DNA from: a virus | DNA: 43,749 bases | Strand: one strand, 5' to 3' | IMG/VR virus record: IMGVR_UViG_3300025952_000007 | Location: 1 to 43,749 of that record | Part shown: positions 4,536-43,749 of the stretch, in pieces | Position numbering within the stretch: position 1 is the first letter of the stretch | How the letters are laid out: each line of letters starts with the position of its first letter | The notes under the pieces: model-generated | What the model saw: the letters and a program-made list of their open reading frames with translations, nothing else | The model's database searches: none | Told to the model about the DNA's origin: nothing | Position numbers and translations under genes: made by a program

Positions 4536-4537
4536 TT

Positions 4538-4834
4538 GTGAAGTTGACTAAAAAGATAGTAGATAATAATCTTTTAAAATATCGTATATGGAAGAATTGG
4601 ACACAAGAAGAAGTCGCCGCAAAATTAAGATTATCAGTCAATAAATATCGACAAATTGAGGTTAATAAAAGATATCCAAGGGCTGATATTGTTAGAAGAA
4701 TACTTAATTTATTTGATGTAAGTTTAGATCAAATGTTTGTAATTGAAAAACCAATTTATGCTAATTATGAAAGTTTAGCAATTCCAAAAGATAGGCCAAA
4801 TAATAGTCGTTTTTCTGGCCGGATGGAGGTATGA
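4538..4834 (+). CDS. XRE-family transcriptional regulator
   Basis: The 98-residue protein has a clear Cro/CI HTH domain at about residues 12-66: LKYRIWKNWTQEEVAAKL, then LSVNKYRQIEVNKRYPRADI as recognition helix region and ILNLFDVSLDQMF closing it. The C-terminal 30 residues are polar. GTG start with AAGGGGG upstream. It lies between another HTH gene and the HIRAN gene, all behind promoter P3. It probably tunes early transcription. It is on the same strand as the lytic genes and has no divergent partner, unlike a classical lysogeny switch. Confidence 0.88.
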   Translation: MKLTKKIVDNNLLKYRIWKNWTQEEVAAKLRLSVNKYRQIEVNKRYPRADIVRRILNLFDVSLDQMFVIEKPIYANYESLAIPKDRPNNSRFSGRMEV

Positions 4835-4835
4835 A

Positions 4836-5231
4836 ATGGGGCGTTTATTTACAGTAGTGGGAATAAAATATTATGATTATGAAAGTCATAAAGATATGAT
4901 TCAAGAGGGAGATATAGTTTATTTAGAACCGGAACCGGAAAACAAATTTGATAAAAATGCGACTGTAGTTTATTTCCCTTTTGATAACTTAAAAATTGGC
5001 TATGTATCAGCCAAAGAAACCGATTATTTATTTGATGACCTGAAAAATTGTACTTTTAAAATACATTCATTTTATAAAAATGTAATCTTAATTGAAGAAA
5101 ATATCATAACTCCTTTTGATTTTGATAAATTAAAAAAGTCATCAAATGAACTATTATCACAGGGCGAAATCGAGGAAGCGTCAATTATTGAAACTGTTAA
5201 AAATTTTTTCGCAAAGCTTAAAAAGCGTTGA
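4836..5231 (+). CDS. HIRAN-domain protein
   Basis: The 131-residue protein has a stand-alone HIRAN domain at about residues 4-72. It has FTVVGIKYYDY, then EGDIVYLEPEPENKFDKNA, the hallmark Gly-Asp followed by E-P-x-N-x-x-D-x-N-A, and LKIGYVSAK. HIRAN domains bind DNA ends or unusual DNA and usually sit beside helicase or nuclease domains in SNF2-like enzymes such as HLTF. Here the domain is alone, with a helical, charged C-terminal tail (IEEASIIETVKNFFAKLKKR). The next gene is an Erf-type annealing protein, so a role at recombination intermediates is reasonable inference. The stop codon overlaps the -35 of promoter P4. Confidence 0.85.
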   Translation: MGRLFTVVGIKYYDYESHKDMIQEGDIVYLEPEPENKFDKNATVVYFPFDNLKIGYVSAKETDYLFDDLKNCTFKIHSFYKNVILIEENIITPFDFDKLKKSSNELLSQGEIEEASIIETVKNFFAKLKKR

Positions 5232-5256
5232 CAACTCATTAAAAAAGTGATATAAT
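5228..5256 (+). promoter_or_regulatory. Early promoter P4, perfect sigma-A consensus
   Basis: TTGACA (5228-5233), 17-base spacer, TATAAT (5251-5256). It is nearly identical to P2 over about 36 bases. It overlaps the stop codon of the HIRAN gene and drives the Erf-type gene. Confidence 0.92.
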
Positions 5257-5286
5257 TATTATATAATTTATTAGGAGGTCATATCA

Positions 5287-7144: not shown

Positions 7145-8470
7145 ATGATGGAATGTAAAAATCTTTTGAAAGTTGATGAAGAATTTAAAAAACTTATACC
7201 ACCTTTAACGGCTGAGGAGTTAACCTTATTGGAAAATAATATTTTAGAAGTAGGAATATTAAGCCCACTTATTACCTGGAATGGGATTATAATTGATGGT
7301 CACAATCGTTATAATATCATGATGAAAAACGATATTGAAATAACTAATAAAAATGTTTTTGATATGGAAAACATTTTAAAAGACCGGGAGTCCGTGGTTG
7401 AATGGATTTTAAAAAATCAAATGGGCCGCCGCAATTTAAATAATGATCAAATGTCGATTATCAGGGGAAAATTATATTTATTATATAAGCGACAAGGCCG
7501 GAGGACTGACTTAGAGGATCAATCTTCCAATCAAACTGATGGAAAGTCAGAGGAAAAGAAAGAGACAAGGAAAGAAAAGCAAGAAACGGCGGCAAAGATA
7601 GGCCAGGAGTTCGGTGTTAGTAAGCCCACTATTGAAAGAGATGCGCGTTTTGTTAGAGAAACCCCACCGGAAATATTACAAAAAATTCAAAATGGTGAAA
7701 TATCAAAACTGCAGGCAAAAAATGAGATTAGAACTCAAAAACAAACTGCAAAAATTGAGGAAGGCCAAAAAATGGAATTACCAACTGATATTTTATTATG
7801 GGAGGGTGAAACTTTGGAACAATTAGACAAGATCAAAGATGAAACAATTGATTTATTATGTACTGATCCTCCATATTATATTTTGGGAGATCAGGAATGG
7901 GACCAATTCATTGATAGACAATCGTATTTTAGTTTTATTTCTATCTGGCTGGAAAAGGTCGCCAAGAAAATGAAAAGGACTGGCCGCATGTATATTTCTT
8001 TTGCTCATGATTATATGTTTGATATCTATCAAATTTTTAAAGAAAATGATTTCTATGGTTTTACATTTGGTAATGTTTTAATTTGGAACATGAAGAATAA
8101 CGTTAAACCATTTGATAAAAAAAGATATAGAATAAGTTATGAACCAATATTTTATTTATATGGGCCAGAAGCGGCTGAAATGAATTTTGATGATAATCCT
8201 AAAGTATTGCCATTTGGTGTGTGGGATATAGCTGTGCCACAAAGTAACTTCGATGAAGGAAAATTTCATCCATGTCAAAAGCCTTTGGAACTTTATAGGA
8301 GAATTATTCAGTCGGGTTCAACTGCAGGAGATTTAATACTTGATTGTTTTGCCGGTTCTGGGACAACTGGCGTAGCTTGTAAAGAATTAAATAGAAGTGC
8401 TATATTGATAGATAAAAATCCCGAATATATAAAATTGGCCAAAGGTCGAATAAATTCAGTAGATATATAG
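7145..8470 (+). CDS. ParB-like domain fused to DNA methyltransferase
   Basis: The 441-residue protein has three parts. A ParB/Srx-like N-terminal domain (about 1-120) has PLITWNGIIIDGHNRY, the last six residues being the conserved nucleotide-binding segment. An HTH follows (148-166, TAAKIGQEFGVSKPTIERD) after a charged linker. The methyltransferase (from about 212) has motif IV DPPY at 241-244 before SAM motif I FAGSGTTG at 402-409, with HPCQKP at 375-380. Motif IV before motif I is the beta-class order, and DPPY indicates amino methylation (N6-adenine or N4-cytosine). No restriction endonuclease lies nearby, so it is an orphan enzyme that may protect phage DNA or mark regulatory sites. The ParB part does not make it a partition gene: no ParA was found. 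Confidence 0.9.
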   Translation: MMECKNLLKVDEEFKKLIPPLTAEELTLLENNILEVGILSPLITWNGIIIDGHNRYNIMMKNDIEITNKNVFDMENILKDRESVVEWILKNQMGRRNLNNDQMSIIRGKLYLLYKRQGRRTDLEDQSSNQTDGKSEEKKETRKEKQETAAKIGQEFGVSKPTIERDARFVRETPPEILQKIQNGEISKLQAKNEIRTQKQTAKIEEGQKMELPTDILLWEGETLEQLDKIKDETIDLLCTDPPYYILGDQEWDQFIDRQSYFSFISIWLEKVAKKMKRTGRMYISFAHDYMFDIYQIFKENDFYGFTFGNVLIWNMKNNVKPFDKKRYRISYEPIFYLYGPEAAEMNFDDNPKVLPFGVWDIAVPQSNFDEGKFHPCQKPLELYRRIIQSGSTAGDLILDCFAGSGTTGVACKELNRSAILIDKNPEYIKLAKGRINSVDI

Positions 8471-31802: not shown

Positions 31803-32849
31803 TTAAAATGAACTTTCTTTAATATATTTTAAACTGGTCCCGGAACTTTGAAAACAATTTAACTCATTTTTAATTTTTTTCCACTGCCCCTCTGTCAAGT
31901 CAAATATTTGTCTAATTTTCCCACTTGGTATTGTGTCCCCATCTTTGAAATTTTCATTTAAGTAAGTTGCAATTTCATTTTTTAAAATAGTTAAGTCCTT
32001 TTCTTTTAGTAAAATTACATTCTTAACTTTTCCTAACTCTTGACTTAACTTTTTATTTTCTTGACTTAACTCTGACTTAACTTTTCCTAACTCTTGACTT
32101 AACTCATTTTCTAACTCTGTCTTAACTTGTCCTAACTCTGTAATAGCTTCATTCTCATTAGATGTCTTAGTTACGATTTTAAATGTCTCTTGACATTTTT
32201 TAAATGTCTCTTGATTGTCACTTAAGTCAAAAGTTAAGTCATTCAAGTTATTATTATATTTGTTAAAAGTATCCATTCTTAACTTATGCAATTTATTAAA
32301 CATCATCATGCGAATTATTGAAAATAGGCCAACACTTTCAATTCTTTTTATCTTATTTTCTTGATAATTTAATAATCTAAAGTCACCGCCCATTGCTGTG
32401 GTTAACAATATTGAACCTTCTAAAAGTATGGATAATGCTAAATTCCATAAACTTTTTTCTTCAAAGAATTTATAATTATAATTTATGGATATTGCAAAAA
32501 GGCCCATTTGAAATATTTTAGCAATTAAATAATACCTAGAAAATTTATTTTTTATAGTTGATTCCTTGATGCATATGCTATACACTGACAGTTGACAAAA
32601 AATAATACCAATTATAAAGCCTGTTAATCCAAGGGTTGTTTTATGGGTTTTAAGTCCGCCAACAATGGTCATAATTGTGGAAGCTGTAAAGCCCATAAAA
32701 CCAATTAAGCCAAAAATATAACCCCAAAGTTTAGTTGAATTATCATATTTAATTTCATTTTTTAAATGGCTCATAGTCCTTTTTACACTTATAAGATTAT
32801 AATCCATCTTTATTTTTTTAATATTTTCTTTCATTTTTTCAATAGTCAT
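31803..32849 (-). CDS. Membrane protein with coiled coil and C-terminal DNA-binding-like domain
   Basis: The 348-residue protein has a charged N-terminus and membrane segments at about 42-63, 72-92, 105-122 and 137-153. A long coiled coil follows (about 215-300) with a repeated S-Q-E-L-G-K-V-K unit. The C-terminal domain (about 305-348) has IPSGKIRQIFDLTEGQWKKIKNEL, like a winged-helix or HTH fold, and ends GTSLKYIKESSF. A membrane anchor joined to a DNA-binding head by a stalk suggests a protein that ties DNA to the membrane. It is last of the operon with the FtsK-type ATPase. No known family was recognised; segregation or transfer is inference. Confidence 0.75.
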   Translation of the reverse strand: MTIEKMKENIKKIKMDYNLISVKRTMSHLKNEIKYDNSTKLWGYIFGLIGFMGFTASTIMTIVGGLKTHKTTLGLTGFIIGIIFCQLSVYSICIKESTIKNKFSRYYLIAKIFQMGLFAISINYNYKFFEEKSLWNLALSILLEGSILLTTAMGGDFRLLNYQENKIKRIESVGLFSIIRMMMFNKLHKLRMDTFNKYNNNLNDLTFDLSDNQETFKKCQETFKIVTKTSNENEAITELGQVKTELENELSQELGKVKSELSQENKKLSQELGKVKNVILLKEKDLTILKNEIATYLNENFKDGDTIPSGKIRQIFDLTEGQWKKIKNELNCFQSSGTSLKYIKESSF

Positions 32850-33332
32850 CTAATTATCCTCCCTTATCAATTTATATTTTCGATTCATTTCTATTATTTC
32901 ACTTATCCAACCAAGATTTAATAAATCATTAAATCTTTCTGATATTAAGTCCTTTCCACAATTAAAGTAATTTGCAATTAATCTATTACCTTCTTTTGTA
33001 TAAATATTATCTATTGCTTTATCTTTCATGTAAATATATAACATTTCAAATTGACATTGTTTACTAAGCTTTTTAAAGTTTTGGCGGTTATTTTCATTAA
33101 AATTTGGCTCATTTTCTGGGAAAATAACATCACCTTTTCCGCCGCCGCCACCTTGATAATATATAATAGTTGTTTTACCTTCTAAAAAATTCTTTAAATG
33201 TATTTCACTAAAATGACTATTGTAAGGAGGCTTTATCGGGTAAAGCGGGTTTATCAAGATTGGCTTTGATTCTGGTTGGTTTTGAATAGCCAACTGCTTT
33301 AATTGCTTCAAAAACTCTGTTATGATTATCAT
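32850..33332 (-). CDS. Winged-helix-like protein overlapping the ATPase gene
   Basis: The 160-residue protein starts 116 bases inside the 3' end of the ATPase gene in another frame. The ATG at 33332 is supported by AGGGGGTG seven bases upstream. N-terminal part is P/L/Q-rich; a GGGGGKGD turn occurs near residue 61; the C-terminal half (about 90-158) has CQFEMLYIYMKDKAIDNIYTKEGNRLIANYFNCGKDLISERFNDLLNLGW, typical of a replication-initiator or winged-helix DNA-binding domain. It is next to the membrane translocase, as initiator or relaxosome proteins are in mobile plasmids. Function inferred only. Confidence 0.72.
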   Translation of the reverse strand: MIIITEFLKQLKQLAIQNQPESKPILINPLYPIKPPYNSHFSEIHLKNFLEGKTTIIYYQGGGGGKGDVIFPENEPNFNENNRQNFKKLSKQCQFEMLYIYMKDKAIDNIYTKEGNRLIANYFNCGKDLISERFNDLLNLGWISEIIEMNRKYKLIREDN

Positions 33333-34983
33333 CTATAAACACCCCCTTTAATTTATAAACTTCGCCTTTTTCATTCTTGAAGCAAAAATATCCCTGCTCT
33401 TGATTCATTGCATAATTGTAATAATCTGGACTTTCTAACATGTATTTTATTTCCGATGATTCAGCAAATTTATGTATTAATCGGCCATCTGCTGAAACTC
33501 TCCAAGTCTTATAATATTGGTCATCGGTGGCTTTTTGTATAATGTCTATGAGATGAAATCCTGCCGATCGTGATTTTGTAAATAAATAAGTCCTTATATC
33601 CTTATAATTCATTTCCTGAGTTTCATTCCCAAAGTCAATTGTGTATTCTCTTTTATAATTCATTTGGACAGGAGTATTAATTTCATCACTTACAATTAAA
33701 AAAAATGGTAATGGATTATCCGGGAACATTTTATTATATTGGATTATGTCCCTGCATTCGATGCCAGTATCAAAAGTAACATCTTCAAATAGTTTATTTC
33801 TTCTCTTAAATTCGCCAATAAGATTAATATAAAATTCCATTTGGGCCGATTCGCTATCCTCTACCATATAAATATTTTTGATGCCTCGATATCTATTCAT
33901 AGCGGACCTTTTAAAATCGGTTATGAATACAACTAATTTATCGTAACTATAATAAATCATTCCATCAATACAACTTATGGCCGTGCAACTTTTTCCAGTA
34001 TTAGTCATACCACCAATTACCGCATGCGTTAATTTAGTCATATCAGAAAATATTACTTTTCCATTGGTAGGATCTATTCCTACGATAAACGGCAAAATCA
34101 TATCTTTAGGCGGTTTAACTGTCTCAATAACTTCATCTAAATAATACACTTTATTGTCCAACTTTTTGATTTTAAACTCATAATTTCCTTCGTTTGTTGT
34201 GATTTCTAATTTTCCAGATTTTAATCCTAATTTATGAGTTATTTCGGCTAATTCCCGGTTTAAAAATTTAAGTTTAATTTTGGATTGATAAATATATATA
34301 TCTTGATATTTGTCAGTAATTGAACTTATATAATATGGTATTCCTTTCATATCTTTTAAAATTTGTTCTAATCGTTCACGGCTACCAGGTTCCATTTTTG
34401 AATATCTATCGTCAAGACCTTTTTTATATTTGATATAAAACTTATTTCTATTTACAATATCATTTGTTATACTGGTAACAGTTGCATTTGTTATAATAGA
34501 AAATAGTATTTTGTGCTTTTCGTCTAGTGGTACATTGGACCTGACCTCCAATGTACCATTTACATTTTCAACAAGCCTTACTTTATTGTCATATTCTTCA
34601 TTAAGCCGCTCAATTATTTTATCTGTTATATATAAGGACCATAAAACAAATCTTATTAAGTCCAATGGATAACTTATTACCAAAGGCAAAAATAATATTT
34701 TAAGGGAAAAATTGAAGTAGTGAATAACTAATCCAGCCAGAACAATACCAATTATCATAATAGCTATAACTCCCCTAAAATCAAGTTTTTTGACATAACT
34801 CTTTGTTAGTCTCATAAATGAAAATAATTTATTTCTTTTTTTTTGCTTTACCATGGCCAGTTTAAAACCATGGGAAACCAAAATAAAAAGAAAGCCAAAC
34901 AATGGATTGATTTTAAAATATTGAAGTATACCAGCTAACACAATACTTGCAATTACTTCAAATTTTGTTACTAAAATCTTCAT
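33217..34983 (-). CDS. Membrane FtsK/SpoIIIE-type DNA translocase
   Basis: The 588-residue protein has two pairs of N-terminal membrane segments (about 8-45 and 71-118). A cytoplasmic linker region follows, then an FtsK-type motor with Walker A GGMTNTGKS (324-332), Walker B FFLIVSDE (427-434) and arginine/sensor region FTKSRSAGFHLIDIIQKA (about 463-480). There is no gamma DNA-orienting domain at the C-terminus. Size and layout are closer to Gram-positive conjugation coupling proteins such as TcpA and to ICE FtsK-like proteins than to bacterial FtsK (which is larger). It would pump double- or single-stranded DNA at the membrane. It heads the minus-strand operon behind a perfect promoter, divergent from an AbrB-like gene. 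Such genes are unusual in siphophages. Confidence 0.86.
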   Translation of the reverse strand: MKILVTKFEVIASIVLAGILQYFKINPLFGFLFILVSHGFKLAMVKQKKRNKLFSFMRLTKSYVKKLDFRGVIAIMIIGIVLAGLVIHYFNFSLKILFLPLVISYPLDLIRFVLWSLYITDKIIERLNEEYDNKVRLVENVNGTLEVRSNVPLDEKHKILFSIITNATVTSITNDIVNRNKFYIKYKKGLDDRYSKMEPGSRERLEQILKDMKGIPYYISSITDKYQDIYIYQSKIKLKFLNRELAEITHKLGLKSGKLEITTNEGNYEFKIKKLDNKVYYLDEVIETVKPPKDMILPFIVGIDPTNGKVIFSDMTKLTHAVIGGMTNTGKSCTAISCIDGMIYYSYDKLVVFITDFKRSAMNRYRGIKNIYMVEDSESAQMEFYINLIGEFKRRNKLFEDVTFDTGIECRDIIQYNKMFPDNPLPFFLIVSDEINTPVQMNYKREYTIDFGNETQEMNYKDIRTYLFTKSRSAGFHLIDIIQKATDDQYYKTWRVSADGRLIHKFAESSEIKYMLESPDYYNYAMNQEQGYFCFKNEKGEVYKLKGVFIDDNHNRVFEAIKAVGYSKPTRIKANLDKPALPDKASLQ

Positions 34984-34998
34984 ATTCTTTTTACCTCC

Positions 34999-35027
34999 TT
35001 GCTTTTTTTTAGTAATTATATTATACT
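34999..35027 (+). promoter_or_regulatory. Promoter of the AbrB-like gene, overlapping the opposing promoter
   Basis: TTGCTT (34999-35004), 17 bases, TATACT (35022-35027). Its -10 overlaps the -10 of the minus-strand promoter. TTAGTA (35009-35014) and TACTAA (35024-35029) form a dyad over both -10 regions, a candidate operator. Confidence 0.72.
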
Positions 35028-35048
35028 AACATTGTAAGTACATGTCAA
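35020..35048 (-). promoter_or_regulatory. Promoter of the FtsK-type operon
   Basis: On the minus strand TTGACA (plus coordinates 35043-35048), 17 bases, TATAAT (35020-35025): perfect consensus. The -10 box shares four positions with that of the opposing promoter, so the two cannot easily fire together. Confidence 0.9.
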
Positions 35049-35070
35049 GATAGGAAGGAGTTTACATAAT

Positions 35071-35244
35071 ATGGAAATTATAAAGAACCTGCAAAAGCAT
35101 GGAAATAGTAAATGTATAGTAATTGATTCCTGGATTTTAAAGCAATTAGGAATTTTTAAGAAATTTAAAATGATCATAGAGCAAAAAAGAATAATAATTG
35201 AAAGGGTGGAGGAAAATGAAGTTACCAAGCGAAATGACGAATAA
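35071..35244 (+). CDS. AbrB/MazE-like DNA-binding protein 1
   Basis: The 57-residue protein MEIIKNLQKHGNSKCIVIDS continues WILKQLGI and ends in a hydrophobic strand IIEQKRIIIERV. The HGNSxxIxI...LxxLGI...xRIII pattern is that of swapped-hairpin AbrB/MazE domains, which bind DNA as dimers. The gene is divergent from the FtsK-type operon with overlapping promoters, so it is the likely regulator of both. It is paralogous in layout to the AbrB-like gene at 41155. A toxin gene of MazF type was not found beside it. Confidence 0.83.
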   Translation: MEIIKNLQKHGNSKCIVIDSWILKQLGIFKKFKMIIEQKRIIIERVEENEVTKRNDE

Positions 35245-35752
35245 TAACAAGATTTTTGAACTTTTAAGAGACTTACAAAAAGAGGTCGAAGATTTTAGAA
35301 ATAAATCAATTTTATTAGTATTTATTGATGATAAATGTTCAAATAATTTTTGTAACATTATTGATCAATATATTAATGAAATTAGATTAGTTTTAAATGG
35401 TGAAGAAAATGAAACAAAAGGATTATCAATAGCTAAAGAAATGTTAAACAACAATATACCTATTCCAGAACTTAAAAGATGTATAATGTGTGACAAAATA
35501 TTATCTAATCAAAAAGATTCATATCCAACAAATCATTATCTTTGTGGCAGTGAATGTACTCAATATTATTTGAGTCTATCTAAATGGAGCAAAAAGGATA
35601 AAATATTTATTTTAAATGAAGATATGCTTAACAATTTTAGGGAACTTCACGGAATAAATCCTATTGACGATATTGAAATTGGAAAAAGAATTGATAACAA
35701 GGACCGGAAAGAAATATTTAAAATTTTTGGAGTTGATGAAGATGAAAGTTAA
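35216..35752 (+). CDS. Unknown protein with a zinc-ribbon-like segment
   Basis: The 178-residue protein has a helical N-terminal half (NKIFELLRDLQKEVEDFRNK) and a cysteine set at about residues 83-110 (KRCIMCDKILSN...HYLCGSECTQYY), CxxC plus CxxxC, likely one zinc site. The ATG at 35216 is chosen for the GGTGGAGG site upstream; it overlaps the AbrB-like gene by 29 bases in another frame. It belongs to the AbrB-led operon. No family recognised. Confidence 0.75.
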   Translation: MKLPSEMTNNNKIFELLRDLQKEVEDFRNKSILLVFIDDKCSNNFCNIIDQYINEIRLVLNGEENETKGLSIAKEMLNNNIPIPELKRCIMCDKILSNQKDSYPTNHYLCGSECTQYYLSLSKWSKKDKIFILNEDMLNNFRELHGINPIDDIEIGKRIDNKDRKEIFKIFGVDEDES

Positions 35753-35957
35753 AATTGATTGGCCCTTAGTATGTAAATTAACTTATCAAATTGACAATGA
35801 ATTATTACAGACATTGGAAAGACATTATATTAAAGGTAAAGGCCAAAATGATCATGTCATTATAAGGGCAGAAGAATTTAAAAGAATCATATATATGATC
35901 TTGGATTCTACAAAAAATATAAGGAGGTGTCGGACTTATGAACAAAAAAGGCCATAG
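35742..35957 (+). CDS. Small unknown protein
   Basis: A 71-residue protein (MKVKIDWPLVCKLTYQIDNE...) starts in the last codons of the preceding gene, with GGAG nine bases upstream. It contains an acidic helix LLQTLERHYIKG and VIIRAEEFKRIIYMILDS, and it overlaps the next gene's start by 20 bases. It was not recognised. Confidence 0.65.
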   Translation: MKVKIDWPLVCKLTYQIDNELLQTLERHYIKGKGQNDHVIIRAEEFKRIIYMILDSTKNIRRCRTYEQKRP

Positions 35958-36357
35958 TGTGGGAGCGGCTATAGCATCGGGGTTAACAATTTATTACTTA
36001 AAAGATTCATATTTTGTTGAAGCCATTACAGTTGGTGGAGTTGTTATTGGTTCATTCTGGCCGGATCTTGATGCTGAGTATTCATATATCAAGTCAAAAT
36101 TGCCAATAATCCCAAATGTAATTGAATTTATTCAAAAAGTTTTACCAGAAAATAATATTACTTGCCATCGTGGCGCGTTATTTCATTCGATTTTGACCTT
36201 AATTCCCTTTGCAATATTTTATAAGGTCCCATTTGTTTTAGGGATGGGAATAGGTATTCTAGGCCACCATTTATTAGATATGACAACTCCGGCCGGCCTA
36301 AGATATTTTTACCCTTATAAAGTAAAAGTTCATGTTTGGAGGCGAATAAAAAAATGA
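35938..36357 (+). CDS. YdjM/DUF457-like membrane metal-dependent hydrolase family protein
   Basis: The 139-residue protein has hydrophobic segments around 8-22, 32-46, 85-103 and a short one near 105-120. Charged, conserved-looking motifs lie between them: KGHSVGAAIASG, GSFWPDLDAEYSYIK, CHRGALFHSILTL and GILGHHLLDMTTPAGLRYFYP. The repeated H, D and E pattern near membrane segments matches the YdjM (DUF457) group. E. coli YdjM is LexA-regulated; an enzymatic role is uncertain. In a phage, it could modify the membrane or aid persistence (inference). AAGGAGGTG ribosome site. Confidence 0.84.
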   Translation: MNKKGHSVGAAIASGLTIYYLKDSYFVEAITVGGVVIGSFWPDLDAEYSYIKSKLPIIPNVIEFIQKVLPENNITCHRGALFHSILTLIPFAIFYKVPFVLGMGIGILGHHLLDMTTPAGLRYFYPYKVKVHVWRRIKK

Positions 36358-36605
36358 TGGAATTAGTTATTAAGTTAAAAAATGATTGTAAATTAGATAG
36401 TTTAAATAGTTTACATAATTATGTAAATTGTAATTTCGAAAAACAAATTAAAAACGCATTTATAAACCACTTGAAAAAGGATGATAGTGAATATGTGTTT
36501 GTTTTGGATAATGTAACTATTGATAGCCTATTTTTAACACCATTATTGAATTTTGAGCCTGTAAATAGTTTTTATATTTTAGAAAGGTTGGAAAAAATAG
36601 TATGA
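36354..36605 (+). CDS. Small unknown protein
   Basis: The 83-residue protein begins M-M-E-L-V-I-K-L-K-N-D. Start ATG at 36354 overlaps the preceding stop (ATGA). It has a helical, basic first half and an acidic strand-rich second half (YVFVLDNVTIDSLFLTPLLNF). Its stop overlaps the next start. No family recognised. Confidence 0.65.
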   Translation: MMELVIKLKNDCKLDSLNSLHNYVNCNFEKQIKNAFINHLKKDDSEYVFVLDNVTIDSLFLTPLLNFEPVNSFYILERLEKIV

Positions 36606-36901
36606 ATAATGAAATTATTGGAAATTGTGGATTATTTGAAAAACATCTTAAAACTATGATTCAAAATATGAATGAACAAATGAGAATATTTAATGAATTT
36701 AATGCAATTATAGGAATGGATATTTACTCATTCTTAGAGTTATATAAGGCTGGAATAATTATAATTCCTAAATTATCGGAATTAGCAAAATGTTGTAATG
36801 AAATTGGGGCCAATACTATTATTAATATTTTCAGAGTATTTGATAAAGATACCAGCCAATTAATGAAAGAATTAAAGGAGTTGAATAATGATGATGGGTG
36901 A
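36602..36901 (+). CDS. Small helical protein
   Basis: The 99-residue protein has amphipathic helices (LFEKHLKTMIQNMNEQMRIFNEFNAIIG; YKAGIIIIPKLSELAKCC) and an acidic tail KELNNDDG. It is translationally coupled to the previous gene by ATGA overlap. No family recognised. Confidence 0.68.
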   Translation: MNNEIIGNCGLFEKHLKTMIQNMNEQMRIFNEFNAIIGMDIYSFLELYKAGIIIIPKLSELAKCCNEIGANTIINIFRVFDKDTSQLMKELKELNNDDG

Positions 36902-37022
36902 TGAAACGTTAATAAAAATTATATTTGGTTATATTTGTATCATAATTTTTATTACAATAATTGTAAACATCCTAAGGAAGCTAAGAAAACGACTAACTAT
37001 AAAGAATTTTAATAGAAGGTGA
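36888..37022 (+). CDS. Small membrane protein with basic tail
   Basis: A 44-residue frame starts with three ATG codons after GGAG, overlapping the preceding stop. One hydrophobic segment (about 8-29, IKIIFGYICIIIFITIIVNI) is followed by LRKLRKRLTIKNFNRR. It would sit with its basic tail in the cytoplasm. The 15-base dispersed motif encodes L-R-K-L-R-K here. Confidence 0.68.
   Translation: MMMGDETLIKIIFGYICIIIFITIIVNILRKLRKRLTIKNFNRR
36974..36988 (+). repeat. Dispersed 15-base motif, copy 5
   Basis: Exact AAGGAAGCTAAGAAA in the small membrane gene, in the L-R-K-L-R-K frame. Confidence 0.85.
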
Positions 37023-37026
37023 TTCA

Positions 37027-37296
37027 ATGCAAAAAAATGGTCCAAATGATGATATTGGATGGATAATTGGAGGAATAATTAAAACATTTGGTTATTCCTT
37101 CATAGGAATTTTTAATATTTTGCTTCATCCAATTAAATTTATTTTAAATATTATAATTTTAATAATAATCGGCTTTTTAATCTGGCAAAGAATTAATAAT
37201 AGATGTGTAGTCAATTGGATAGATTTGATCTTACTAATATCCTTTTTTAAATTACTAGGCTATACAGGGGAAAGGGGGAGTTTAGTTAAAAAATAA
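37027..37296 (+). CDS. Small membrane protein
   Basis: The 89-residue protein has a polar start (QKNGPNDDIGW), two or three membrane segments (IIGGIIKTFGYSFIGIF; IKFILNIIILIIIGFLIW; IDLILLISFFKLL), and a basic end (ERGSLVKK). It is the last plus-strand gene of the AbrB-led operon before a terminator. The function is unknown; position with YdjM-like and other small membrane proteins suggests an envelope-directed cluster. Confidence 0.72.
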   Translation: MQKNGPNDDIGWIIGGIIKTFGYSFIGIFNILLHPIKFILNIIILIIIGFLIWQRINNRCVVNWIDLILLISFFKLLGYTGERGSLVKK

Positions 37297-37313
37297 CTAA
37301 GCTCTTCCCTTTT
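37271..37313. terminator. Terminator after the membrane operon
   Basis: TTAGTTA (37282-37288) pairs with TAACTAA (37294-37300), extended by AAAGGG and CCCTTT after a small internal loop. It is followed by TTTTGATTTTA. It stops plus-strand transcription and could also serve the convergent minus-strand operon. Confidence 0.7.
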
Positions 37314-37332
37314 GATTTTAGAATTTTCGATA

Positions 37333-37503
37333 TCAATTCTTATCATATATTACATTATTCATCTCTAAAAGTAAATATTCGTAGTCTGCATTATATAATT
37401 TTACAATATCTTTAATTCTATTGATAATATCTAGTCCATTCTTGGGATAATCTTCTAGCAATTTTCTTTCAAAGTCATTCAAAAAGATAAATGGTTTATC
37501 CAT
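37333..37503 (-). CDS. Small acidic/helical protein
   Basis: The 56-residue protein (MDKPFIFLNDFERKLLEDYP...) is helical and charged, ending NNVIYDKN. The ATG at 37503 has GGAGG upstream and overlaps the preceding gene by 8 bases. It is the last gene of the minus-strand primase operon. The function is unknown. Confidence 0.68.
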   Translation of the reverse strand: MDKPFIFLNDFERKLLEDYPKNGLDIINRIKDIVKLYNADYEYLLLEMNNVIYDKN

Positions 37504-37846
37504 ATGAATCCTCCGCCCTTTTATATAAAATTTCCCATGATGACATTAGTAATTCCATATCTTGGCATAGCGTGACTTTAGTAACTTTTAAATTTTCTTT
37601 TACCCATTTGGCCATACCCTTTCTATCTTCAATATAGACCATCTTTAAAAGATCAATAATATCATTCTGTATATTTTCCACCGGGTTATATAAAACATGT
37701 CTTGTATGAGCCTTTTCGTCACACTCAGTACAATAAAAATCAATTATAGCCTCTTTATAGTTGTATAAGCATTTCATTTTAAGGCCACCACAAGCACATT
37801 TTATATATTTATAGGTATCTGTTTGTAAAAAATTATCATACTTCAT
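37496..37846 (-). CDS. Zinc-ribbon-like protein
   Basis: The 116-residue protein has CACGG at about 17-21, CLYN at 26 and FYCTECDEKAHTRH at about 37-50: two C-x-C / C-x-x-C knuckles that would hold one zinc. The C-terminal half is helical. It overlaps the CHC2 gene by 11 bases and may act with it in DNA binding. No exact family recognised. Confidence 0.72.
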   Translation of the reverse strand: MKYDNFLQTDTYKYIKCACGGLKMKCLYNYKEAIIDFYCTECDEKAHTRHVLYNPVENIQNDIIDLLKMVYIEDRKGMAKWVKENLKVTKVTLCQDMELLMSSWEILYKRAEDSYG

Positions 37847-38354
37847 AATAACCCACCGCCTTTAAATCATAAATATAACTAATCAGTCTTTTATCATCAT
37901 CTAAAAGACTTTCTATTTTTAAGTTTAATTTCTCATTATTCTTTTTACAGGCCCAGCCAATAAAATCATTAATTTCCTGGGCAATTCTTTTATTTTCTTG
38001 CCATTCTAATATTGCCAAAATTTGGTTTTCACGTTTACAAGCAAAACTTTGTTCGGTTTGAGTGAGGTTGAATCGTTCGCCTAGGTGTTTACATGCTTCA
38101 TTAAAATTCATATGATTCATTTCCATTATAAAATCAATGACACTGCCACCCTGGCAACACTTTGAATGTGAAGTGTATAAATTTAACTTAGTGTTTACCT
38201 GGAAGTGATTCAAGTGTTGGCAGAATGGACAATATTTAAATATATAACCTACATCAATGCGGGTTTTTTGAGTATTAACCATGTAAAGGTTTAGTAAGTC
38301 CAGGATTTTAACTCTGGACTTGATTTCTGCGGCGCTATAACTTTTATACTTCAT
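37836..38354 (-). CDS. CHC2-type zinc-finger protein (primase-like)
   Basis: The 172-residue protein fits the N-terminal zinc domain of DnaG-type primases. Features are IKSRVKILDLLNLY, KYCPFCQHLNHFQVNTKLNLYTSHSKCCQGGSVIDF with metal-binding residues around C42, C45, H48 or H50 and C66/C67, then IMEMNHMNFNEACKHLGERF. No TOPRIM catalytic domain follows, and none was found elsewhere. It may recognise primer sites for host primase or a split enzyme. Start at 38354 is chosen, after GGTGG; an earlier ATG at 38375 would overlap more of the upstream gene. Confidence 0.85.
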   Translation of the reverse strand: MKYKSYSAAEIKSRVKILDLLNLYMVNTQKTRIDVGYIFKYCPFCQHLNHFQVNTKLNLYTSHSKCCQGGSVIDFIMEMNHMNFNEACKHLGERFNLTQTEQSFACKRENQILAILEWQENKRIAQEINDFIGWACKKNNEKLNLKIESLLDDDKRLISYIYDLKAVGYYEV

Positions 38355-38566
38355 ATTTCCACCATCCAAACACATTTTAAAATTTCTAATTTACAACAAT
38401 CTTTAAAATTAAGTGTTTCTTTTAATATTATTGCAACATGAGACTCCATTAAATACTCAGGATCTTCATCACTTTCTAAGTTGGCCACTACTATGCAATT
38501 TTGATGTATTGAACCATAAATCGAATTTGTAATTTTGTAATTTACCTTATATTTGGCAATTTTCAT
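38351..38566 (-). CDS. Small unknown protein
   Basis: The 71-residue protein (MKIAKYKVNYKITNSIYGSI...) is strand-rich at the start (IHQNCIVVANLES) and helical at the end. It starts in the stop of the upstream gene and overlaps the next by four bases, so it is tightly coupled. No family recognised. Confidence 0.68.
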   Translation of the reverse strand: MKIAKYKVNYKITNSIYGSIHQNCIVVANLESDEDPEYLMESHVAIILKETLNFKDCCKLEILKCVWMVEI

Positions 38567-38742
38567 GATTTTACATCTCCTTCCAATTCTAAATATTTTT
38601 TAATTGCTTGACTTCTACACTTTTCACAATCCATTGAGCAGTCCTGATCTTCTAAGCCTAACAATGAAGGGCAGCGGCCATGGCCATAATTTACAAAAAA
38701 TAGTATTAATTTTTCTAATAATTCCTTTTCCTTATTTTTCAT
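38563..38742 (-). CDS. Small four-cysteine protein
   Basis: The 59-residue protein starts MKNKEKELLEKLILFFVNYG and carries RCPSLLGLEDQDCSMDCEKC (about 23-42), four cysteines with C-x3-C-x2-C at the end, likely one zinc. Similar small C-S-x-D-C-E-x-C proteins occur in phages. AGGAGG lies before the ATG. It leads the minus-strand primase operon behind the promoter at 38776. Confidence 0.75.
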   Translation of the reverse strand: MKNKEKELLEKLILFFVNYGHGRCPSLLGLEDQDCSMDCEKCRSQAIKKYLELEGDVKS

Positions 38743-38759
38743 AATTTCATCCTCCTAAA

Positions 38760-38804
38760 GACTAATCATAATATAATTATATCAATCATATTATGATTAG
38801 TCAA
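38760..38804 (-). promoter_or_regulatory. Promoter inside a 15-bp inverted repeat
   Basis: On the minus strand TTGACT (38799-38804), 17 bases and TATAAT (38776-38781). The promoter lies within a perfect 15-bp inverted repeat, GACTAATCATAATAT (38760-38774) with 38788-38802. The dyad could be the operator. As RNA it could also terminate the RecD2-type helicase transcript that ends at 38813. Confidence 0.8.
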
Positions 38805-38812
38805 ATCTTTTT

Positions 38813-41041
38813 TTAATTTATTTCCATCTTTTCAACTAGTAATGTTTTCCTTTTGCTAGAAAGTTTGTTCCTTACTATCTTATTGATAGTATCTTTACTA
38901 TTTGAGATTAAAGCGAATAATTTTTTGGCCCTAGTTATTGCTGTATATAACAATCTTGAATCGGTTATCATATTAAATTCTGATAAATCACAAACCACGG
39001 TTTCAAACTCACTGCCTTGTAATTTGTGAATAGTGCAACAATAAGCCAGTTTTAAATTTTCTAATTCATCCCAATTTAAATCATAACTTACATGTTTATC
39101 GAGGCCAAAATAATAGACAACTATTTGAATATCTTTCTTTTTTTCAGTGCTATTATAAAACTTTTCTAGTTGTTCATTAGTTTTAACTACTTGTATCATG
39201 TCTAAGTAATCAGTATATTTAATAGAATCAATGCGGCCAAATTCGCCGTTATAAACATCATTCATATAGTCATTTTTAGTATTCATTATTTTATCGTTTA
39301 AATGAAATCCGGTCGGTTTTGTGCCTATAAAAATTGAAGTATTTTCGTTTTTTTCTGAAATAATTAAATTAATTTCGTTACATCTCCTGCGGCTTGATGT
39401 ACAAATTTGAAATTCATTATAAAAAGTATCTAAGCTTCCTTTATTTGTAAGGTCAATATCTTTAGTTTTAGCGGCCCAACACTTTAAAATATAATCAGTT
39501 GGGTTGTTTTGGATTGTACTAAAAAAGTCTTTTGATTTGATCATATCGAATGATTTATTTTCCCGGACTAAATTTGCCACGTTTAAAATATTGCTATCAC
39601 CGGCTTGACGAAATGTGTTAGTCAAGGTTATTACATTGATTTTGCCTGATGTTATTAAATCAGCTTGAACAGAACCGGCGCCAACGCTTGGCAATTGGCC
39701 AGGGTCGCCGACTAAGATCAATTTAACATAATTTGTTAGACTGTTAACCATGGCTTTTAATACTTTATGGAATAAAACTGTATCAACCATACTAAATTCA
39801 TCAATGATCATACAATAGGGACGGCTTGAAATGTTGTCATTCTGGCCGGATTCTTCACTATAATAAAATCTATGACATGTGACTGCATCGTGATTCGTTG
39901 CTTCTGACATGCGGCGCGCGGCTTTGCCAGTTGGGGCAATACAAGTCATTCTATAATTTAATTTTTCCAAAATAAAGATTATACATTTTATTATTGTTGT
40001 TTTACCAGTTCCGGCGCCACCGCAAATCATTGATACATTGCCAGTAACCCCACTAATAACGGCCTCTTTTTGGACTACATGTAATCTAATTTTATTCTCA
40101 TGTTCATATTGTCTAATTAGGACCTCTATATTAGATTTTTCATATTCTGACATTTGATCTAAATTAGAAATAAGTTTCAAATTAGTTGGAATCATTTTTT
40201 CTGCTTCATTCATGGCCTTAGTTTGAATTTTTCCATTTTCATTTACAACTTTTGCGTCATCACAATTAATAAAATCATTTACATTTTCAATACCAAGATT
40301 GTAATTACTGATTTCATCAACAAAGGTGTCTATTTCAACATATGTTGAGCCAAAACCAGTAATTTTATTTGTTATTTGCTCAGTTAAATATAAAATCCTG
40401 CTTCTTAAGTTCTTAGGACATTTAAACTTTTCTTGTGCTAAATAATCAACTTTTTTGAAATTCATTTCTAAGTCATTTATCAAAATCTCGTACGGATCAG
40501 CCTTAAATTGATCCACTGATATATTTTTTTCATTTAAAAACCCTACCAATTTATGTATTTTCTTATTGGTTATACTTTGACCAGCCAAGGCAATGACTTT
40601 TCTTAAAGTTTCATTTGATTTTAAGAAGTTCAGGCCCTCGAATATTTTTTCTATTGTGGCCGGTCCAACTCCCTTTATTTTTGGACATTCTTTAGAATAG
40701 AATATTGATAAATCATGATTTGGTATTCCGTCCAATACTTTTTTAGCTGTTCCGTCTTTTATTCCTTTTATTGAGCAAAGTAAATTAAATTTTGCGTTAT
40801 ATGAAGTTGTATCAAATATTTCATATGATGCCTTAAATGATGGACTACCACGGTATAAGGTTTTGACTCCGACGAGAGTCGTGATGCCTGGCCTTAACAT
40901 AAAACCATTGCAATTGACTGTTAATTCTCCTAAAAAGTTGCCGTGTTCCTTGCTGTCAGCTACATAAACAGTAAAATCATCCTTTGTATAAATTTCTTTG
41001 ATAATGTCAACTTTGATTTCAATTTCCTTTAAATTATTCAT
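38813..41041 (-). CDS. RecD2-type helicase
   Basis: The 742-residue protein is an SF1B helicase of the RecD2/TraA group. An N-terminal OB-like part is followed by helix-hairpin-helix segments (about 89-136, CSIKGIKDGTAKKVLDG, KIKGVGPATIEKIF). The motor has GGAGTGKTT (341-349), DEFSMVD (414-420), GDPGQLPSVG (445-454), LTNTFRQ and the C-terminal AYCCTIHKLQGSEFETVV with LLYTAITRAK. These enzymes unwind 5'-3'. It likely supports DNA replication from the nearby origin, since the phage has no polymerase of its own. Promoter at 41090-41118 is divergent from an AbrB-like gene. GGGGAGGCC ribosome context shared with 2067. Confidence 0.94.
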   Translation of the reverse strand: MNNLKEIEIKVDIIKEIYTKDDFTVYVADSKEHGNFLGELTVNCNGFMLRPGITTLVGVKTLYRGSPSFKASYEIFDTTSYNAKFNLLCSIKGIKDGTAKKVLDGIPNHDLSIFYSKECPKIKGVGPATIEKIFEGLNFLKSNETLRKVIALAGQSITNKKIHKLVGFLNEKNISVDQFKADPYEILINDLEMNFKKVDYLAQEKFKCPKNLRSRILYLTEQITNKITGFGSTYVEIDTFVDEISNYNLGIENVNDFINCDDAKVVNENGKIQTKAMNEAEKMIPTNLKLISNLDQMSEYEKSNIEVLIRQYEHENKIRLHVVQKEAVISGVTGNVSMICGGAGTGKTTIIKCIIFILEKLNYRMTCIAPTGKAARRMSEATNHDAVTCHRFYYSEESGQNDNISSRPYCMIIDEFSMVDTVLFHKVLKAMVNSLTNYVKLILVGDPGQLPSVGAGSVQADLITSGKINVITLTNTFRQAGDSNILNVANLVRENKSFDMIKSKDFFSTIQNNPTDYILKCWAAKTKDIDLTNKGSLDTFYNEFQICTSSRRRCNEINLIISEKNENTSIFIGTKPTGFHLNDKIMNTKNDYMNDVYNGEFGRIDSIKYTDYLDMIQVVKTNEQLEKFYNSTEKKKDIQIVVYYFGLDKHVSYDLNWDELENLKLAYCCTIHKLQGSEFETVVCDLSEFNMITDSRLLYTAITRAKKLFALISNSKDTINKIVRNKLSSKRKTLLVEKMEIN

Positions 41042-41075
41042 ATTGGCCTCCCCAAAAATTTTATTTAAATTTATA

Positions 41076-41104
41076 TTGCTTATATATATATTGTATAGTA
41101 TAAT
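41076..41104 (+). promoter_or_regulatory. Promoter of the second AbrB-like gene
   Basis: TTGCTT (41076-41081), 17 bases, TATAAT (41099-41104). It uses the same TTGCTT as the first AbrB-like gene and overlaps the opposing promoter at 41090. Confidence 0.78.
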
Positions 41105-41118
41105 GACTATATAGTCAA
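41090..41118 (-). promoter_or_regulatory. Promoter of the RecD2-type helicase with palindromic operator
   Basis: On the minus strand TTGACT (41113-41118), 17 bases and TACAAT (41090-41095). A perfect palindrome TGACTATATAGTCA (41104-41117) overlaps its -35 region and abuts the -10 of the opposite promoter: a clear candidate operator. Confidence 0.8.
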
Positions 41119-41154
41119 GTATATATTTTATTTTAAATTTAGGGGGAAAATGAT

Positions 41155-41319
41155 ATGAAAATAAAACTAAGGATATTAAATGGATCGGCTTATATGTTAA
41201 TTAATAAAGAAGTAAAAGAAATGTTGGAAATTGGAGATTTTGTTGATGCAAAAATAGTTGATGGGAAAATAATTGTTGATAAAGTTATTGATAAATCTGT
41301 GGATAAAATCACAAAATAA
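41155..41319 (+). CDS. AbrB/SpoVT-like DNA-binding protein 2
   Basis: The 54-residue protein (MKIKLRILNGSAYMLINKEV, then KEMLEIGDFVDAKIVDGKII) follows the swapped-hairpin AbrB/SpoVT pattern: short strands, a helix with KEVKEMLEIG, and VDAKIVDGKIIV. It is divergent from the RecD2-type helicase, with overlapping promoters and a palindromic operator between them, so it likely represses the helicase and itself. The last 20 codons contain DnaA box 1, so the gene runs into the origin. GGGGG ribosome site seven bases upstream. Confidence 0.84.
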   Translation: MKIKLRILNGSAYMLINKEVKEMLEIGDFVDAKIVDGKIIVDKVIDKSVDKITK

Positions 41320-41435
41320 ATACTTAATCTGTGGATAACTTTTAATACTGTGGATAAGTCTGTGGATAAAATTCTGTGGATATGTGGACAACTTTGTTGA
41401 ATAATTTATATTAAAACTATCATATAATAAAAAAA
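41298..41435 (+). other. Probable replication origin: six DnaA boxes plus AT-rich region
   Basis: TGTGGATAA, the complement of TTATCCACA, occurs exactly at 41298, 41330, 41349 and 41361; TGTGGATAT at 41375 and TGTGGACAA at 41383 differ by one base. All lie on the same strand within 94 bases. They are followed by about 45 AT-rich bases (41392-41435) suitable as an unwinding region. A helicase gene follows directly and a RecD2-type helicase lies on the other side. This is the layout of a DnaA-dependent origin. Host DnaA would bind here. Confidence 0.9.
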
Positions 41436-41466
41436 TAGCCCTTGTCATAAATTTATGACTTGGCTA
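41436..41466. promoter_or_regulatory. Palindrome at the origin/helicase boundary
   Basis: GTCATAAATTTATGAC (41444-41459) is a perfect 16-base palindrome, and outer arms TAGCC (41436-41440) and GGCTA (41462-41466) extend it. A TATAAT lies just upstream at about 41423-41428. It may be an operator for the helicase gene or a part of the origin. Confidence 0.65.
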
Positions 41467-41493
41467 AATTTTTCAATATCTAGGAGGTATTAT

Positions 41494-43656
41494 ATGACAA
41501 AAAGGGAAAAAAATCAAGTCAATTGGTTTGAGGAGGTAAAAAATAATATCAGACTTGAAAACAATGAAAGTTTTTTCATTGGAGAAATTCCCGCTCCTGC
41601 TGGAACTAAAAAAGCTATGAGATATGGAACTGGCGAAGGAAAAACTTACAATGCCGCTTATTTTGCTTTGTATAATTTATTTTATACCAGCAGAAAAATA
41701 ATAATTTCCACAACTAAAAATGAAAATGTTGAGGATCTTTTAAATGAAATTTTTGATATTTTAAAGAAAAATATATCAATTACAGAAAATTTACAACAAT
41801 TTTTAGATGATGGAATTAAAAAAAGTGTAGGGAAACAACTTTTAAAAAAGTTAGGGATTAATAAAATGGTAAGTTATAATCAAATTGCAAAAGAAAATTT
41901 ATCAATGGCCAGGGTTATTATAACAAATCATTCCTATTTTTACCCAAATGGTCATTCTAGTTACTACTTCAAAAATATTCTCAAACTTATGGAGGTCATT
42001 GGTCCTGATGATATATTTATCATTGACGAGGCCGACGAGTTTGAAAAAATGGCAGAAACTTCAATACAATTGAATGACTATTTAAAAACCGTTAAGTCAA
42101 GTACTGATAATATTTTAAGGCCTGCTAAAAATTGCTTTGCCAGTCGGAGCAAAGATCAATTTATTAAGGCAATGGACGAATACCGGTATGAACTACCAGT
42201 TGAAAACACCAATATAAGATTTACAAAAGAGGGGGATTTTGATACGCCTACTTATGTTTTGGACCAAACAAACAATAATTTGGACCTAGACCAATTAATT
42301 AATGAGTTTTATTTTGAAAAACATACCTTTGAAGATACTGGCCGGCGTGTTGGAATGACAATTGATGCTTTCGATAATAAATTCAAATTGCTCCGGGTAT
42401 TTAAAGGCGAATATCTAAGCCCAAATAATATCAATCATTACCATTTGGAAACTAATGATATTTTAAGGTTAATTCAAAATTCAATCGGCGCAACTAAAGT
42501 TGAGCAAATAATTAGACTTTTAGATCCACTCACTGAGGAGCCAATTATTGATTTTGATACTAGAGAAGAATTTATATCATGGTGTCAAAAAAATATGACT
42601 ATCAATCAATATGATAAAATGATCAAAAAGTTGATGAATGAGGCAAAATTACTTTATAAGAGATTTTTAACAGTCAAAAGAAAGCCTATCATTAATAAAT
42701 GCAATACAGTATATTATATTACGGCAACTCCTTACAATCTTAATCAATTAGGTTATTTTGTAGAAAATGGTAAATCAAAAAAAGTAAATACAATTGAAAA
42801 TATTGATATGTTCTTTATAAATAGGGATATATCAGTTGACAACTTAGTTATCAACTTGGCAACTGAATGCTTACTTAATTATAAAGATGATATCAATTGT
42901 CTTAGCTTCGCCGCAGAGAAAAGAAATGTTGAGAAGTTAATAAAATCCAAAAAATATCTTTACAAAGATAAAAAATATTCTGGCGTAAAGGTTAAAACTT
43001 CGATTAATGATGATTATCTGGTTGATTTAAAAGGTGTTACTGCAGTATTAGGTGAGGCCGATAATTATGAATGTATTAAAGACTATTCTTATATAACATA
43101 TTTGAATAGCCCAGAATCAACTGGGAAAAATTATAAGGTATCAAATCTTTGTATCATTAACACCCAGCCAGAAATTAATGCCCTGGGTCGTCAATTAATA
43201 ACAGATAAATATGCCAAGTTTATTGATATTGAAGTTGCTAGTTTTAGGACCATTCTGCAAGCTTGCGGCCGAATTGAGAGAGCAGACAGCGAAAAGTATA
43301 AAGCCATTATTTTTATTGGAAAAGATGAAAACATTGTTAATAATTACATTGAAGAAAAAAAAGGAAATGGCATAATTTATAATTTTATGAGTGACAAAAC
43401 CATTAAATTAGGTGAAAAAAACCTAAAACATAAGATTATAAAAATATTTGACCATATCAAAGCTAATATTAACAGTGATTTCGAAGAAATGCAATTAAGT
43501 TTTCAAGATTCAAGAAAAAAATACAATAAATCCGAAATAATTCAATACTATTTAAACTTATTATCTAATAATTTAGATAAGGAAGCTAAGAAACAAACAA
43601 TTTATAAATTTGGCATTGCTAGAAATTTATTAAATCAATATATCAAAAATATTTAA
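41494..43656 (+). CDS. SF2 DEAD-box-type helicase
   Basis: The 720-residue protein has Walker A GTGEGKT (45-51), motif Ia IIISTTKN (69-76), motif II IIDEADEF (176-183), motif III YYITATPY and motif VI QACGRIERADS near residue 600. It is an SF2 helicase; the four cysteines of DinG/XPD enzymes are not present. The ATG at 41494 is chosen because AGGAGG lies 7 bases upstream. The gene directly follows the DnaA-box array, so it may unwind or load at the origin. The end crosses the circular join. A copy of the dispersed motif lies near the 3' end. Confidence 0.9.
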   Translation: MTKREKNQVNWFEEVKNNIRLENNESFFIGEIPAPAGTKKAMRYGTGEGKTYNAAYFALYNLFYTSRKIIISTTKNENVEDLLNEIFDILKKNISITENLQQFLDDGIKKSVGKQLLKKLGINKMVSYNQIAKENLSMARVIITNHSYFYPNGHSSYYFKNILKLMEVIGPDDIFIIDEADEFEKMAETSIQLNDYLKTVKSSTDNILRPAKNCFASRSKDQFIKAMDEYRYELPVENTNIRFTKEGDFDTPTYVLDQTNNNLDLDQLINEFYFEKHTFEDTGRRVGMTIDAFDNKFKLLRVFKGEYLSPNNINHYHLETNDILRLIQNSIGATKVEQIIRLLDPLTEEPIIDFDTREEFISWCQKNMTINQYDKMIKKLMNEAKLLYKRFLTVKRKPIINKCNTVYYITATPYNLNQLGYFVENGKSKKVNTIENIDMFFINRDISVDNLVINLATECLLNYKDDINCLSFAAEKRNVEKLIKSKKYLYKDKKYSGVKVKTSINDDYLVDLKGVTAVLGEADNYECIKDYSYITYLNSPESTGKNYKVSNLCIINTQPEINALGRQLITDKYAKFIDIEVASFRTILQACGRIERADSEKYKAIIFIGKDENIVNNYIEEKKGNGIIYNFMSDKTIKLGEKNLKHKIIKIFDHIKANINSDFEEMQLSFQDSRKKYNKSEIIQYYLNLLSNNLDKEAKKQTIYKFGIARNLLNQYIKNI
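43579..43593 (+). repeat. Dispersed 15-base motif, copy 6
   Basis: Exact AAGGAAGCTAAGAAA near the 3' end of the SF2 helicase gene, in the K-E-A-K-K frame. Confidence 0.85.
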
Positions 43657-43749
43657 ATTGGAAAAAAAAGAGAGCAGTATTTAAGAGAGTCCCATATAGT
43701 AAATAGAGATTCATAAATACTGCTCTCAAATATTACCAATTAAATGTAA
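43623..43749. repeat. Second copy of the terminal repeat
   Basis: Identical to 1-127. It holds the end of the SF2 helicase gene and the first downstream hairpin. It should be counted once on the circular map. Confidence 0.93.

Follow-up and report, generated by a model that had tools for sequence, protein, structure and literature searches.

The question raised by this locus is whether two very small AbrB-like genes control the divergent promoters beside them and, if so, whether that control could work as a switch. The DNA analysed, referred to as the window, is the whole 43,749-base contig of the virus record IMGVR_UViG_3300025952_000007 in IMG/VR, in which the gene for AbrB1 faces a minus-strand operon across the promoter pair P1 and the gene for AbrB2 faces another across the promoter pair P2. 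A first-pass annotation of the same DNA had suggested that these junctions could serve as a bistable control in place of CI/Cro. It is considered reasonably probable instead that each AbrB-like protein controls its own conserved bidirectional promoter, where competition for polymerase sets the direction and the protein exerts negative feedback. For comparison, two relatives, A (IMGVR_UViG_3300027675_000013) and B (IMGVR_UViG_3300038431_000007), were obtained from viral contig searches.

Geometry and conservation of the divergent promoter pairs

The two promoter pairs are placed as follows.

34999..35048, both strands: P1, interlocked divergent promoters between the ftsK-like gene and AbrB1, with the same spacing in A and B
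41076..41118, both strands: P2, interlocked divergent promoters between the recD2-like gene and AbrB2, with the 9 base pair (bp) offset and the 17/17 spacers the same in A and B

Promoters were scored as sigma-A-like by their mismatches to TTGACA/TATAAT, and shuffled genomes served as the control. At P1, the plus promoter, which reads to AbrB1, consists of a weak -35 (TTGCTT, 34999-35004), a 17 bp spacer and TATACT (35022-35027), and the minus promoter (35020..35048), which reads to the ftsK-like operon, is perfect, with TTGACA (35048-35043), 17 bp and TATAAT (35025-35020). The minus promoter therefore has 0 mismatches and the plus promoter 4 (total 4), the -10 boxes overlap by 4 bp, and the predicted start sites (about 35034 on the plus strand and 35013 on the minus strand) are 21 bp apart. 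At P2, the plus promoter has TTGCTT (41076-41081), 17 bp and TATAAT (41099-41104), and the minus promoter has TTGACT (41118-41113), 17 bp and TACAAT (41095-41090), giving 3 and 2 mismatches (total 5); the -10 boxes do not overlap and are separated by a 3 bp gap, with predicted start sites at about 41111 (plus) and 41083 (minus), 28 bp apart. The TTGCTT plus promoters and the 17-base spacers reported in the first-pass annotation are thus present at both pairs. Its near-perfect minus promoter was found at P1 and not at P2, where the two mismatches lie, and its description of the -10 regions as overlapping or interlocked fits P1 by overlap and P2 by interlocking only.

Promoter sequence alone is weak evidence, because shuffled AT-rich genomes hold equally good pairs: the mean number of divergent pairs in shuffled genomes was 2.0 at a total mismatch of ≤4 and 13.7 at ≤5, the latter being an approximate yardstick, since the scan took -10 offsets up to 8 bp and the offset of P2 is 9. 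Perfect promoters numbered 4 in the window, against 0.1 expected per shuffled genome. When the real intergenic regions were shuffled, an equally good pair at any offset appeared in 2 of 1500 shuffles for P1 and 121 of 1500 for P2, and with the observed offset and 17/17 spacers in 0 of 1500 and 1 of 1500, respectively.

The decisive evidence that P1 and P2 are real control elements, as judged from the aligned genomes, is the conserved spacing. The -10 offsets are the same in the three genomes (2 bp at P1 and 9 bp at P2) and all spacers have 17 bases, even though fourfold-degenerate sites in the FtsK-, RecD2- and SF2-like genes are only 54-57% (A) and 34-50% (B) identical to the window, that is, nearly randomised, indicating that a layout kept to the base belongs to real control elements. 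The proteins themselves are 76% and 54% (FtsK-like), 83% and 63% (RecD2-like) and 85% and 59% (SF2-like) identical in A and B, respectively. The P1 plus promoter reads TTGATT-17-TATACT in A and TTGCTT-17-TATACT in B, and the minus promoter is perfect in B and has one mismatch in A. In B, the ribosome site of ftsK is shifted by about 10 bp off AAGCAA, yet the -35 of the P1 plus promoter keeps its register. Positions invariant in all three genomes amount to 18/20 in the hexamers and 18/30 in the spacers of P1, and to 19/24 and 8/19 at P2; the spacer conservation at P1 therefore points to a protein site. A search of genome contigs for host or prophage copies, carried out with two protein families, found no relative.

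The best divergent pair of the genome (total mismatch 1) lies at 5228-5286, just before an Erf-like gene, where a perfect TTGACA-17-TATAAT promoter (-10 at 5251-5256) faces a one-mismatch promoter (-10 at 5258-5263); no leftward-read gene is served by that opposite promoter.

AbrB-like proteins and their candidate operators

The candidate regulators and the sites proposed for them are the following.

35071..35244, plus strand: AbrB1, an AbrB/MazE-like protein of 57 amino acids (aa), with homologues in the relatives 68% and 39% identical
41155..41319, plus strand: AbrB2, a 54-aa AbrB/MazE-like protein with the order beta-beta-alpha-beta-beta, 34-35% identical to its counterparts in the relatives
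35013..35040, no strand: candidate AbrB1 operator, a dyad TACTTA-N14/15-ATAAKTA of conserved spacer bases over both -10s
41104..41117, no strand: candidate AbrB2 operator, the palindrome TGACTATATAGTCA, the single site in the window

Profile and predicted-fold evidence agrees with the first-pass annotation that AbrB-like genes stand at both junctions, with AbrB1 assigned through the AbrB2 set. AbrB2 of relative A matches PF04014 over the cut-off (34.1 bits), and the AbrB2-set profile matches MazE (E 7e-7) and AbrB (E 0.003) in the PDB. AbrB1 matches phrog_4324 (E=5e-5), and its set aligned to the AbrB2 set by profile comparison with 96% probability, the only route by which AbrB1 is tied to the AbrB/MazE superfamily; P0001 and AbrB2 of B match at 53% over 30 residues. 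A tblastn search with AbrB1 against phages and plasmids found no match. AlphaFold monomer models of both proteins have the beta-beta-alpha-beta-beta order with MazE as the top fold match (E 0.15-0.25, prob 0.87-0.99, for monomer models only). Both small proteins are accordingly taken as AbrB/MazE-fold on sequence and model grounds, with putative DNA binding. They resemble the swapped-hairpin DNA-binding proteins of the AbrB/MazE/SpoVT superfamily in the predicted strand order, in a GNS-type N-terminal motif and, for the AbrB2 set, in matching MazE and AbrB by profile, and differ in their length of 54-57 aa, without a C-terminal domain or a recognised toxin partner.

In the P1 dyad, the arms are 21 bp apart with an (A/T)TAGTA-like box in the middle, so that boxes are spaced 10-11 bp. 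One site in the window fits the pattern, with mismatches, against 0.10 expected by chance. The operators suggested earlier, the dyad TTAGTATAATATAATTACTAA and the palindrome TGACTATATAGTCA, do exist locally; as an operator, TTAGTA/TACTAA was set aside, being unconserved in the relatives, and TACTTA-N14/15-ATAAKTA suits all three genomes better. At P2, a search allowing up to 2 mismatches gave no other match to TGACTATATAGTCA in the window (0.25 matches expected by chance), and the relatives carry other short palindromes, TATGTACATA and ATGTATACAT, in its place. The idea that a single protein regulates both P1 and P2 was also discarded, as no operator-like motif is common to both promoters.

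The DNA identity between the window and A is 42-57%, overall about 45%, over 41101-41400, a segment that takes in the half of P2 with the operator, AbrB2 and the DNA just beyond it, against about 80% in RecD2 beside P2 and in the SF2 gene. The segment 41101-41450, with AbrB2 and the DnaA-box region, forms a low-identity island between the window and A, flanked by proteins 83-85% identical. Phage immunity repressors often show such divergence through exchanged specificity. The AbrB2/operator cassette may, by analogy, diversify like an immunity specificity; fast drift of a small gene is an alternative for the island.

Proposed control and rival explanations

The operons served by the two pairs, and the putative origin next to P2, are listed below.

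33217..34983, minus strand: FtsK/SpoIIIE-like ATPase, first gene of the P1 minus operon
31803..33332, minus strand: two more genes of the P1 minus operon (160 and 348 aa), without family match
35216..37296, plus strand: genes 3' of AbrB1, including a YdjM-family protein (35938-36357)
38813..41041, minus strand: RecD2-type superfamily 1 (SF1) helicase, first gene of the P2 minus operon
37836..38375, minus strand: DnaG-type zinc-ribbon protein (primase N-domain), in the P2 minus operon
41298..41369, minus strand: putative replication origin of four exact DnaA boxes (TTATCCACA), all oriented alike, which overlap AbrB2 at its 3' end
41455..43656, plus strand: 733-aa protein 3' of AbrB2, probable superfamily 2 (SF2) helicase, with Walker A GTGEGKT and a DEAD-like box IIDEADE

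The FtsK-type and RecD2-type minus operons described in the first-pass annotation are thus in place. The window holds 5 exact DnaA boxes (one outside the cluster) against 0.65 expected, A and B both carry a single exact box at the corresponding position, and the cluster after AbrB2 is, on this sequence evidence, the likely replication origin; GC skew alone gives no origin mark there. For the 733-aa protein, the Pfam DEAD match reaches only E=0.025, the motifs were read by eye, and a PDB search gave no match.

From the sequence, the geometry, the conservation and the AbrB-like relationship, we infer a mechanism in which RNA polymerase would hold one orientation at a time at P1 or P2. At P1, the perfect minus promoter of the ftsK-like operon would be the default winner, leaving the weak plus promoter short of polymerase. 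The plus-side AbrB protein would bind operator half-sites between the two -35s and cover both start regions, and since the candidate operators lie between the -35s, over both -10/+1 regions, the bound repressor should block both directions. Such repression would give negative feedback, with an early burst and then homeostasis. P2, beside the DnaA boxes, would make both the expression of the replication genes and the passage of transcription through the origin depend on the level of AbrB2, and its plus transcripts are predicted to run across the DnaA array.

Several results weigh against this reading. The viral contig searches gave two relatives only, and the plus -35s in the window are weak, with 3 mismatches each. 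Neither AbrB protein of the window reaches PF04014, AbrB1 alone had no match in a PDB sequence search, and the AlphaFold confidence is modest (predicted local distance difference test, pLDDT, 64 and 71), with fold-match E values >0.1. AbrB2 could also have been replaced by drift or by recombination unrelated to immunity.

In the bistable switch proposed earlier, AbrB would block only the opposing promoter, and the release of polymerase would raise its own expression, giving two stable states that replace CI/Cro. Switching by unequal overlapping divergent promoters under a local regulator is known from plasmid pLS20 (PMC4207663), and in the searches made, no integrase or serine recombinase and no divergent CI gene were found. 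A minimal occupancy model gave 4.7% bistable cases when only the opposing promoter was blocked, but 0 in 20,000 random parameter sets when both directions were repressed, as the candidate sites over both start regions suggest. Symmetric repression is monostable in the model, so two stable states would require some asymmetry, of which the anatomy gives no hint. The switch of pLS20 further depends on its regulator as an activator and on an operator for DNA looping; the window gave no second operator, the P1 operator pattern having one match only, though a divergent site could escape. On either side of P2 lie genes of replication type, RecD2 and the primase zinc ribbon versus the helicase-like 733-aa protein next to the DnaA boxes, and a lysis/lysogeny choice at P2 is argued against because these are not opposed fates. 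Replacement of CI/Cro is made less likely by a Cro/CI-type helix-turn-helix (HTH) gene of the HTH_3 family at 4538-4834, on the plus strand inside the early run, the presence of which leaves room for a classical repressor. A bistable switch is therefore considered quite unlikely. The related statement that firing is limited to one direction is plausible for any given moment, but in published bidirectional promoters competition was measurable only at strong transcription (PMC12825309).

The AbrB genes might instead be minor autoregulated early genes, the overlap being merely compact and polymerase competition without regulatory consequence. Bidirectional promoters are common, five tested ones had no competition at basal activity (PMC12825309), and AT-rich DNA readily yields such pairs. 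This explanation is nevertheless thought rather unlikely, since the exact offset is found in 3/3 genomes at both loci, even at P2 where the neighbouring operator bases are replaced, and the P1 minus promoter is a perfect consensus, where competition is expected. A toxin-antitoxin role, in which each AbrB-like gene would be the antitoxin and an adjacent gene an unrecognised toxin, would accord with MazE as the best fold and profile match. However, no MazF/PemK-type toxin was found in the three genomes with the PF02452 profile, which matched 3/14 control genomes; the gene after AbrB2 encodes the helicase-like 733-aa protein, and the gene directly after AbrB1 shows little conservation over the stretch compared, making this explanation highly improbable. 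In a wider claim, the two AbrB repressors on interlocked promoters would form the main decision circuit of a tailed-phage lineage, relatives would exchange the AbrB2-operator-origin cassette as immunity specificity, and AbrB2 would decide replication as well as superinfection immunity; this is regarded as unlikely. HTH repressors are the textbook case in phage immunity, and if AbrB2 were an exchangeable immunity determinant beside the origin, an AbrB-fold type of repressor would be added to it.

Compared with known systems, the bidirectional sigma70 promoters of Warman, Grainger and colleagues also hold one polymerase at a time (PMC12825309), and their class is defined by start sites 7-25 bp apart, mainly sharing one symmetrical -10, with 18 bp as the commonest distance (PMC12825309, PMC10268837). 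The phage pairs likewise have opposite-strand promoters in one DNA segment, and P1, with its overlapping -10s and a predicted distance of 21 bp, falls within this range, whereas P2 (28 bp, -10 gap 3 bp) lies outside the definition and both pairs have separate -35s on both strands with exact 17-bp spacers. The nearest switch is the Rco/Pc-Pr conjugation switch of pLS20, with overlapping divergent promoters and one polymerase at a time (PMC4207663). A regulator gene on one side and a large operon on the other are shared with it, as are overlapping promoters of unequal strength, at P1 as judged from the mismatches; in pLS20, in contrast, the Pr promoter has to be activated by its regulator and the switch relies on looping between two operators, against one operator site found per promoter in the phage, and the phage regulator is AbrB-like.

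The nearest AbrB-type viral regulator is C68 of the archaeal plasmid-virus pSSVx, which binds the region separating its gene from a divergently oriented one (PMC5569661). C68 is also a very small AbrB-fold viral regulator at its own divergent region, but it binds at archaeal promoters (one site over the B recognition element (BRE) motif and the other between promoters), with another DNA motif and at a single locus. As in lambda-type CI/Cro control, a regulator gene stands at a divergent control region and transcription would run toward an origin-like DnaA array; unlike it, the fold is AbrB and not HTH, each divergent region has one regulator, the promoters are interlocked and there is no opposed second repressor. 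Two opposed divergent HTH repressors were not seen, the only clear HTH_3 gene being the lone one in the plus-strand early run. No tailed-phage case joining these features was found in the literature searched, absence being not thereby proven. Bidirectional promoters are widespread and their control is little known; here, three phages preserve a compact natural pair with base-exact spacing, and beside each bidirectional promoter stands a very small candidate regulator.

Genome layout, host and neighbouring genes

Matches to the portal protein, large and small terminase, minor head protein, endolysin and Erf recombinase identify the window as a tailed phage. An exact direct terminal repeat of 127 bases (1-127 and 43623-43749) allows the genome to be mapped as a circle. 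All genes lie on the plus strand except those at 31803-34983 and 37496-41041, and because only these two minus-strand blocks exist (orientation inspected by eye), the circle has exactly two divergent junctions, P1 and P2. Relative A seems to be circularly permuted, its ftsK and recD2 lying close to opposite ends of the contig. Distant FtsK relatives (Niallia and Paenibacillus plasmids, phage Goe25) were dismissed as further cases, having no AbrB-like gene annotated beside them, with many neighbours 'hypothetical'. A search for structured RNA families gave no match.

The relatives of the portal protein (about 30% identity) are mostly phages of Firmicutes, and the host is taken to be AT-rich and probably Gram-positive. 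A secreted Thr-rich 138-aa protein with an LPKTG-type wall anchor is encoded at 1005-1421, which points to a Gram-positive host and, for the phage, to a function at the surface. The HTH_3 gene is matched in B over the cut-off and weakly in A; it belongs to a stretch of small HTH_26-like and HTH_3 genes (4266-4834) within the early gene run, with a HIRAN-domain gene next. A fusion-like protein, ParB-like in its N-part and an N6/N4 DNA methyltransferase in its C-part, is encoded at 7145-8470.

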